Shown piece after piece: positions 33,936 through 36,371 of a DNA stretch of 64,000 nt (the first letter of the stretch is position 1; the number at the start of each line of letters is the position of its first letter). The notes under the pieces are model-generated. The model did no database searches. It was not told where the DNA came from and saw nothing but the letters and a program-made list of their open reading frames with translations. This DNA comes from Capsaspora owczarzaki ATCC 30864 (taxonomy: Eukaryota; Opisthokonta; Filasterea), in the NCBI RefSeq assembly GCF_000151315.2, contig NW_011887300.1:565310-629309 (forward strand), given 5' to 3'. The position numbers were made by a program, and so were the translations under genes.

Positions 33936-36371
33936 ATGGTCATGCGCATTGCTGCTGCTGCTGCTACTGCGCTGCTGGTCACCATTGCGCTGTCCAGCCA
34001 GCTCGCCTTTGCTGCCCCGCTCGTCCGCGACCGCAGCACTCCCTGCCGCGCCCTCGCTCTTGCTGGCGGTGCGTCCCCCACTCACTCTCTCTGTCTCTCC
34101 CTCTATGTCTCTCTCTCTCTCTCTTCCATTACAATCTGTCTCTCTCCTTCACTTTTCAATGCTTTTCAATGCTTTTCAATACGAAACTCGCAATTTCGTT
34201 CGGCTGATTTCGGGTTTTTGGGTTTTTGATAATTTTAAACCGCTTTTTTTTTTCATTTGCTGTTCCTTTTCGTCTCATTCGTCAAAGTGGGCGACTTGAG
34301 TGAGACAAGCGAAAAGAAGGACAGACAAGCGAAAGACAGACAGCGAAAGAGAGAGAGAGAGAGAGCGAAAGAGAAAGAGAGCGAGTTGCACAGTTCGCAT
34401 TCAAAAATAACAAAAAAAAATAAAAAAAAATAAAAATAAAAAAATCAAATAAAATAAATTGTATTTAGTTTGTATTGAGTTTGCGGCTTGCACAACCCAT
34501 TTTATTCCAATCACTAACTCACTGAATTTAACTGAATGCTTTTCTTCCATTGCATCGCTTTTGTTTCTTTGGTTTTTTGGTTTTTTTTTGCTTGTTTTTT
34601 GACTTGACAAGGCGGCGACCGTGGCGCGTACCAGGCGGGCGTCTTCCAGGCGTTTGTCGAGAATGCTCCCGACCAGGTGACTTACGACGTTGTCACTGGA
34701 ATCAGGTAAACATGGCCAATGGGTTTTCTGTTTGTACTTTAATGCATTTAAAAGAACAAATACTTATACTTGTTTGCTATCGTGTGAATATCTACTTTTG
34801 TTCTTGTGATCCGACTTGTTCCCCTCGTTTTCATCTTGTTTCATTCCTTGCCTCTGTGGCCATTCTGCTCCGTGCATTGATCGAAACCAACACGACCGCG
34901 TCTTCCGCTTTTGACACAGTGCCGGGTGAGTCCGTTCCGTCTTTTGTTTGTGTTTTTGCCTTTTTTTGATTCAATTTTTCGGCTTCCGAAAAGCAAGAAA
35001 AGCAAGATCGGATGGTTTGGTCAAATGATCAAAACACTCTTTGACACAAAACAACAGCCAAAAAACACGAAGAAGAAGAAGAAAAGGAACGTTTGATGCT
35101 GGAATTGGGATTATTGACTTGTGTTTGTTTTTGACTCTTGTTCCATCACTTTCAGCTCCATCAACACGGCTGCTCTGTGCATGTACAAGGTACGAAAGAC
35201 ACGACACAAACATGCTCATGAGAATTCGTGCTGAAACTCACACTTTTTGACGCTGTTTTTTGGTTGTTGTTTTTTGGATTCGTTTGGGTTGAAACAGCAA
35301 GGCGATGAGAAGGTAAGAAACAACTCCTGCATGCTTCGCATCCTTGCTCGCAAGAAAAAAAACACGAACGCTCATCCCGTTTACGACGCGTCTCGCACAC
35401 ACAGGCTGCTCTCGATTTCGTCTTGGGCGAATGGCTTTCCATCGTCGCCTCGGACATTTACAAGAACTGGCCGCTTGGCATTGCGGAAGGCTTTGCCGTC
35501 AAGTCTGGGCTTTTCAGCACGGCTCCGCTCGATGCCTACCTGCACTCCAAGGTCAACGTCACTGAAACGCTTGCCAGCGGCCGCAAGTGCGTGGTCGGCG
35601 CTACTTCTCTGACCCGTGACGCCTACACCCAATTCGACTCGACCAACGCCAACTGGCTGACTGCTCTCCGTGCCTCCAGCGCTGTCCCCGGCGTGTTTGA
35701 GGCCGTGACCATTGGCGACGAGACGTTTGTTGACGGGTACGACTTGGTCATTATTGGGATCTTTTTTTTTTTGTTTCGAAAGTTGCTGAATTACCCCTTT
35801 TGTTTTGTTTGTCTGCCCGCCTTTTTTTTTTCCCTTTTCAACTCACGCTTCACAGCGGTGCCGAGTACATGACCCCTGTTTCTGACGCCCTCGCCAAGTG
35901 CGCCGAGGTCTCGGACAACCTCTCCATCGATGTCATTCTGTGCATTGGCCTGCAGCTGCCCGACGCCAACCACACTTGGATTACGCCCGAGGTCTTTTTG
36001 CGCACCGCCACCCTCGAGGCCCAGAACATTTTGATGAAGAATGCTCAAAGCGCCTCGGTCGCCTTCCCCAACGCCAAGATCCGCCTGGTCTTCCCGAGCA
36101 AGGTTCTTCCTGGCTACTTCCTGACCTTCAAGCCCGAGTATGCTGAGGAGGTGAGTTTGGTCGTTTGGGTGGATAGAGCAGAGAGTTGGAGTCAACTTTG
36201 GGACGTTACTACCCGATCAAGAAGAAACTGCAACGTACTCACTGTTTACTGCGCGTTTTGTAGATGATCAAGGTCGGCTACACCGACGGCATCAATGCCC
36301 TCAAGGCTGATGGCACCCTGCCCGAGGGCTTTGAGGCTGTCGAGCTTGACCTGTCTCGCTTCCGCAAGTGA
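33936..36371 (+). CDS. Secreted patatin-like phospholipase/acyl hydrolase
   Basis: Eight exons: 33936-34068, 34612-34705, 34920-34925, 35156-35189, 35298-35312, 35405-35736, 35856-36150 and 36264-36371, giving 338 residues with all phases consistent. A signal peptide (MVMRIAAAAATALLVTIALS) is followed by the patatin oxyanion motif GGGDRG near residue 45. The nucleophile elbow GISAG comes next, with Ser76 encoded across exons 2 and 3. The catalytic Asp is in FVDGG near residue 204. Exon 3 is only 6 nt and exon 5 only 15 nt. The protein probably hydrolyses acyl lipids outside the cell or in the endolysosome. Short proteins of this kind are found in many protists and bacteria; the substrate is unknown. 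Confidence 0.88.

Follow-up and report, generated by a model that had tools for sequence, protein, structure and literature searches.

In the gene at positions 33936-36371 (plus strand) of the Capsaspora owczarzaki window –the whole 64-kb stretch of DNA analysed here– a coding exon of six nucleotides, TGCCGG at 34920..34925, is predicted to complete the nucleophile elbow of a patatin, and this reading is well supported by the sequence. The microexon is very probably real and mostly constitutive: its two flanking introns would be removed singly, the spliced message would encode GISAG, and the enzyme would depend on the exon. If the gene is transcribed as modelled, a close unicellular relative of the animals would provide a clear example of a catalytic site that cannot work without a 6-nt exon.

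The gene and its predicted product

The gene comprises eight exons, whose splice sites were placed by reading frame and motif, and introns of 92 to 543 nt. Its spliced product has 338 amino acids and no internal stops. The Patatin profile (PF01734) scored 95.8 bits against this product (cut-off 27.7) and was covered from 1 to 191 of 191 positions; judged by its sequence, the product is a patatin-like phospholipase. After splicing it contains GGGDRG, GISAG, and DGG, and hence all three patatin motifs (GGGx[RK]G for the oxyanion, GxSxG for the nucleophile, and DG[GA] for the Asp). The patatin family uses a Ser-Asp dyad. The preliminary description, which had spoken of a lipase nucleophile elbow, was right in kind, but the family is patatin and not that of the alpha/beta-hydrolase lipases. 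Among other profiles, the alpha/beta hydrolase one (PF07859) matched other genes and missed the 33936-36371 gene, and an AAA_26 match in the product (16.8 bits vs. a cut-off of 27) was dismissed as chance. The N-terminus is hydrophobic and by eye resembles a signal peptide. The 338-aa protein may be secreted, and the predicted enzyme would act as a lipid acyl hydrolase.

All exons lie on the plus strand. Exon 1 (33936..34068) holds the start codon, the hydrophobic N-terminus, and the beginning of the GGGDRG oxyanion motif, which is interrupted by intron 1 (34069..34611, 543 nt). Exon 2 (34612..34705) carries the remainder of GGGDRGAYQAG and ends after GI and the AG of the catalytic Ser codon. 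The 6-nt exon 3 is enclosed by intron 2 (34706..34919, 214 nt, gtaaac...gacacag) and intron 3 (34926..35155, 230 nt, gtgagt...tttcag), both of phase 2. Exon 4 (35156..35189, 34 nt) supplies the last base of the elbow Gly and then SINTAALCMYK. It is followed by a 15-nt microexon, exon 5 (35298..35312, QGDEK, phase 0-0), which is less certain than exon 3. Exon 6 (35405..35736) stops inside the DGG motif, after the Asp and two bases of a Gly codon, exon 7 (35856..36150) completes this motif, and exon 8 (36264..36371) ends with the stop codon at 36369-36371.

The predicted six-nucleotide exon within the nucleophile elbow

Exon 2 ends with GGA ATC AG at 34705 and is followed by gtaaac. The acceptor gacacag ends at 34919 and precedes TGCCGG, which is followed by the donor gtgagt; the next acceptor, tttcag, ends at 35155, and C TCC ATC AAC starts at 35156. 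Read across both junctions, the codons give G-I-S-A-G-S-I-N, with the Ser formed by AG and T, the Ala by GCC, and the last Gly of the elbow by GG and C. Position and letters of the exon are exactly those given in the preliminary description, and so is its share of the elbow: the third base of the Ser codon, the whole Ala, and two bases of Gly. The same phase 2-2 arithmetic bears out that skipping the exon would keep the frame and lose Ala-Gly. With six nucleotides and canonical GT-AG introns on both sides, exon 3 fits the microexon size class (internal exons of 1-15 nt).

The exon had also been described as the only in-frame route found to GISAGS, and it proved unique when we enumerated splice paths between anchors fixed in exons 2 and 4. 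The enumeration covered paths built from either one or two GT-AG introns, each at least 40 nt long (4,695 paths). Only one of the 310 one-intron paths was open and in frame, and none restored GxSxG. The 4,385 two-intron paths included 26 that were open and in frame, one of them with GxSxG, namely the path using TGCCGG; the nucleophile elbow was hence obtained by 1 of 4,695 paths. When exon 3 was left out, the Patatin score fell from 95.8 to 77.9 bits, a loss of 17.9 bits.

To estimate how often such a cassette arises by chance, we made 20,000 shuffles of 34712-35150 that preserved its dinucleotides; the patterns were written post hoc, after the site had been seen. The loose pattern AG[TC]NNNGGGT –post hoc like the others– was found in 241 of 20,000 shuffles and 13 times on both strands of the window. 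The strong-site pattern YAG[TC]NNNGGGTRAG, likewise post hoc, was found in one of 20,000 shuffles and once on both strands of the 64-kb window, whereas the version that additionally codes for Ala, again defined after the fact, was absent from all 20,000 shuffles and present once in the window (both strands). Cassettes bounded by AG and GT, up to about 150 nt long and restoring VTGxSxG, were present in 305 of 3,000 shuffles; that a rescue exists at all is therefore weak evidence. The weight of the microexon claim rests on its tiny size, its strong sites, and its exact fit.

The elbow was then compared among relatives. Its G, S, and G were invariant in the 338-aa protein and all five aligned bacterial and phage relatives, whereas the residue after Ser varied; these five were picked from 34 records (25 plasmid and nine phage), with human-pathogen and other environmental records omitted. 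A search with a 68-residue piece retrieved at least six prokaryotic loci, and an intact GxSxG was displayed in four of six; for the other two, the sequence line ended before the elbow (L033) or nothing was displayed (L032). Because GISAGSIN was among the search words, the four of six are a biased tally and carry no weight as evidence for the motif. The PDB sequence search gave weak matches only, the best of which (E 0.0081) was a phospholipase, and a search of viral contigs with the 338-aa protein found no relative.

Within the Capsaspora genome itself, the PF01734 profile gave at least ten matches, which correspond to at least nine genes, including the 33936-36371 gene (L014); L012 and L016 count once, as adjacent exons of the same gene. 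The eight other patatin genes found were L007, L008, L009, L010, L011, L012, L013, and L015, the last of them below the family cut-off. All eight (counting L015, below the cut-off) have an uninterrupted Ser-x-Gly in the elbow, and none has an intron between the elbow Ser and Gly. A protein search with E up to 1 found no second copy of the gene in the genome: all five matches were the gene's own exons. By eye, introns were placed upstream of the matching site in two of these genes: 7 nt away in L012 (about 1400-1504), within the first Gly codon of GTSAG, and about eight residues away in L007. L013 (from about 1414), likewise by eye, has one in the GGG loop; in L012 and L013 the positions differ from those in the 33936-36371 gene. 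Published Capsaspora GAPDH and actin sequences (PMC9170242) matched the genome exactly in four of four cases: the two GAPDH primers point towards each other within a single locus, and the actin promoter and terminator sequences lie on either side of a gene with actin motifs. None of four coYki queries taken from that paper (two primers and two 90-base arms) matched, which counts against the otherwise very probable assignment to Capsaspora owczarzaki; the coYki region may be absent from the contigs or may have escaped the search.

Inclusion, skipping, and retention

We favour constitutive inclusion of exon 3: its two ordinary GT-AG introns lie 6 nt apart within the nucleophile elbow, and the spliceosome would most likely recognise each as a unit, taking out one and then the other. 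AG, TGCCGG, and C would thereby be joined into G-I-S-A-G, and phospholipase activity would depend on exon 3. Recognition of each flanking intron as a unit is suggested by their short lengths of 214 and 230 nt and by sites that look strong, as judged against the general consensus. Alternative splicing in Capsaspora is reported to be predominantly intron retention (PMC4739763, PMC3870316). Short introns, strong-looking sites, and a retention-dominated transcriptome fit intron recognition that needs no long exon, and thus favour constitutive inclusion. From these features we infer both the inclusion of exon 3 in the mRNA and the order of intron removal. Against this reading, 6-nt exons can be recognised inefficiently in some settings: with such an exon in place of the 9-nt one of potato invertase, skipping or mis-splicing is reported for more than half of the transcripts (PMC4674806), which by analogy counts against efficient inclusion of TGCCGG. 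The lack of the same intron pair in all eight paralogues found also counts against a constitutive microexon.

Retention of either intron could be a real form of control. If intron 2 were kept, the Ser codon would read AGG and be followed by TAA; if intron 3 were kept, GGG TGA would place a stop after Ser-Ala-Gly. In both introns the stop codon begins one base inside, and retention is the predominant type of alternative splicing in this organism. Because of these immediate stops, retention is no worse a candidate for the off-state than skipping. However, a phase-2 GTRA donor would by our reasoning always create such a stop, which needs no selection, and we regard control by retention as rather unlikely. 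The preliminary description had instead suggested an on/off switch. As a regulated switch, inclusion would yield an active phospholipase and skipping an inactive one, in proportions that would vary with life stage. The premises of the switch are supported by the sequence, in which the exon completes the elbow and skipping it keeps the frame (GISAGSIN becomes GISSIN, a form that is presumably inactive). The on/off step is unsupported: the splice sites of exon 3 look strong, and roughly a third of exons would be expected to keep the frame by chance alone. Moreover, none of the eight paralogues found shares the exon, and the other microexon of the gene (exon 5, 15 nt) is symmetric as well.

Regulated exon skipping does occur in Capsaspora, where 191 cassette exons are reported with a PSI below 95% in at least one stage and 29 change by at least 15%; most of "these exons" (around 60%) are frame-keeping, and among those under differential regulation two-thirds overlap an annotated domain (PMC3870316). 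A potato invertase transcript is also described as showing cold-induced exon skipping, for an exon that the source does not specify (PMC8483784). The Capsaspora survey took its junctions from annotated sites and set a minimum of eight bases per boundary (PMC3870316), so a 6-nt exon was probably neither visible nor excluded there. Taking both sides together, a regulated switch appears very unlikely, and the chances are slimmer still for an active-site microexon switch in which stage-regulated skipping of TGCCGG would inactivate a secreted phospholipase of Capsaspora and leave the remaining protein intact. The least probable reading is that there is no microexon, with 34706-35155 as a single intron and an inactive patatin carrying GISSIN as the product. 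Although the GISSIN path is the sole open in-frame one among the 310 one-intron paths, it would cost the 17.9 Pfam bits despite keeping GGGDRG and DGG, and the strong cassette at 34917-34930 (1 of 20,000 shuffles) would be a coincidence.

Comparable microexons and further introns in catalytic motifs

The mechanism of constitutive inclusion proposed here is not new, and its precedent is the mini-exon of plant GH32 genes; the host and the enzyme are unusual. As in potato invertase and chicory 1-FEH IIb, a tiny exon would supply catalytic-site residues, which there include an Asp. The plant cases differ in being 9 nt long and coding for glycoside hydrolases, whereas the exon described here has 6 nt and belongs to a patatin of an amoeboid holozoan. 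The 9-bp mini-exon is reported to code for DPN, which contains one of the three active-site residues, and an allele that lost the mini-exon is described as putatively non-functional (PMC4477480). In potato invertase, the introns flanking it are described as removed in two steps (PMC4674806). A survey of ten plant species ranks the mini-exon's motif with those most commonly coded by microexons, and reports that annotation often overlooks plant microexons (PMC8831610). If our model is true, it would be a warning that gene models can lose an active site through short-read aligners and annotation pipelines; the gene would also offer a simple test of very small exon recognition among short introns.

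Animal microexons often keep the frame, and the 6-nt exon of chicken cTNT lies in an animal gene and in no enzyme active site. Exon 3 shares its length with this cTNT exon, which is described as constitutive, and six nucleotides are given as the smallest size known for a constitutive exon before the single-nucleotide exon of APC11 (PMC4674806). It also falls in the size class of the 3-15 nt microexons of animals (PMC4739763). In the filamentous fungus Trichoderma virens, a microexon switch in Xlr2 is reported to alter the DNA-binding domain of a regulator, with isoforms measured (PMC11121469); unlike it, the Capsaspora exon would sit in an enzyme active site. Among the matches listed in the open-licence literature on microexons with Capsaspora, patatin, or active sites, no title names the TGCCGG exon.

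Exon 3 is much better supported than exon 5, because the latter is worth only 2.6 bits (the Patatin score falls from 95.8 to 93.2 bits without it) and competes with other open solutions: two of 50 one-intron and five of 65 two-intron paths are open in its region, so that a single-intron form is open too. Exon 5 (QGDEK, 35298-35312) is symmetric (0-0) and lies in a loop after the elbow, ahead of the next conserved Trp. TGCATG, the RBFOX word of animals, occurs at 35178 in exon 4 and at 35328, 15 nt after exon 5. It is present 24 times on the plus strand of the window, and an animal-type enhancer reading near exon 5 was set aside.

Finally, four of the seven introns (at 34069, 34706, 34926, and 35737) interrupt catalytic motifs, namely GGGDRG, GISAG twice, and DGG. 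The hypergeometric P of this clustering, calculated post hoc, was 6e-5 over all positions and about 1e-3 over positions that follow [ACG]G. It may reflect glycine codons acting as good insertion sites.
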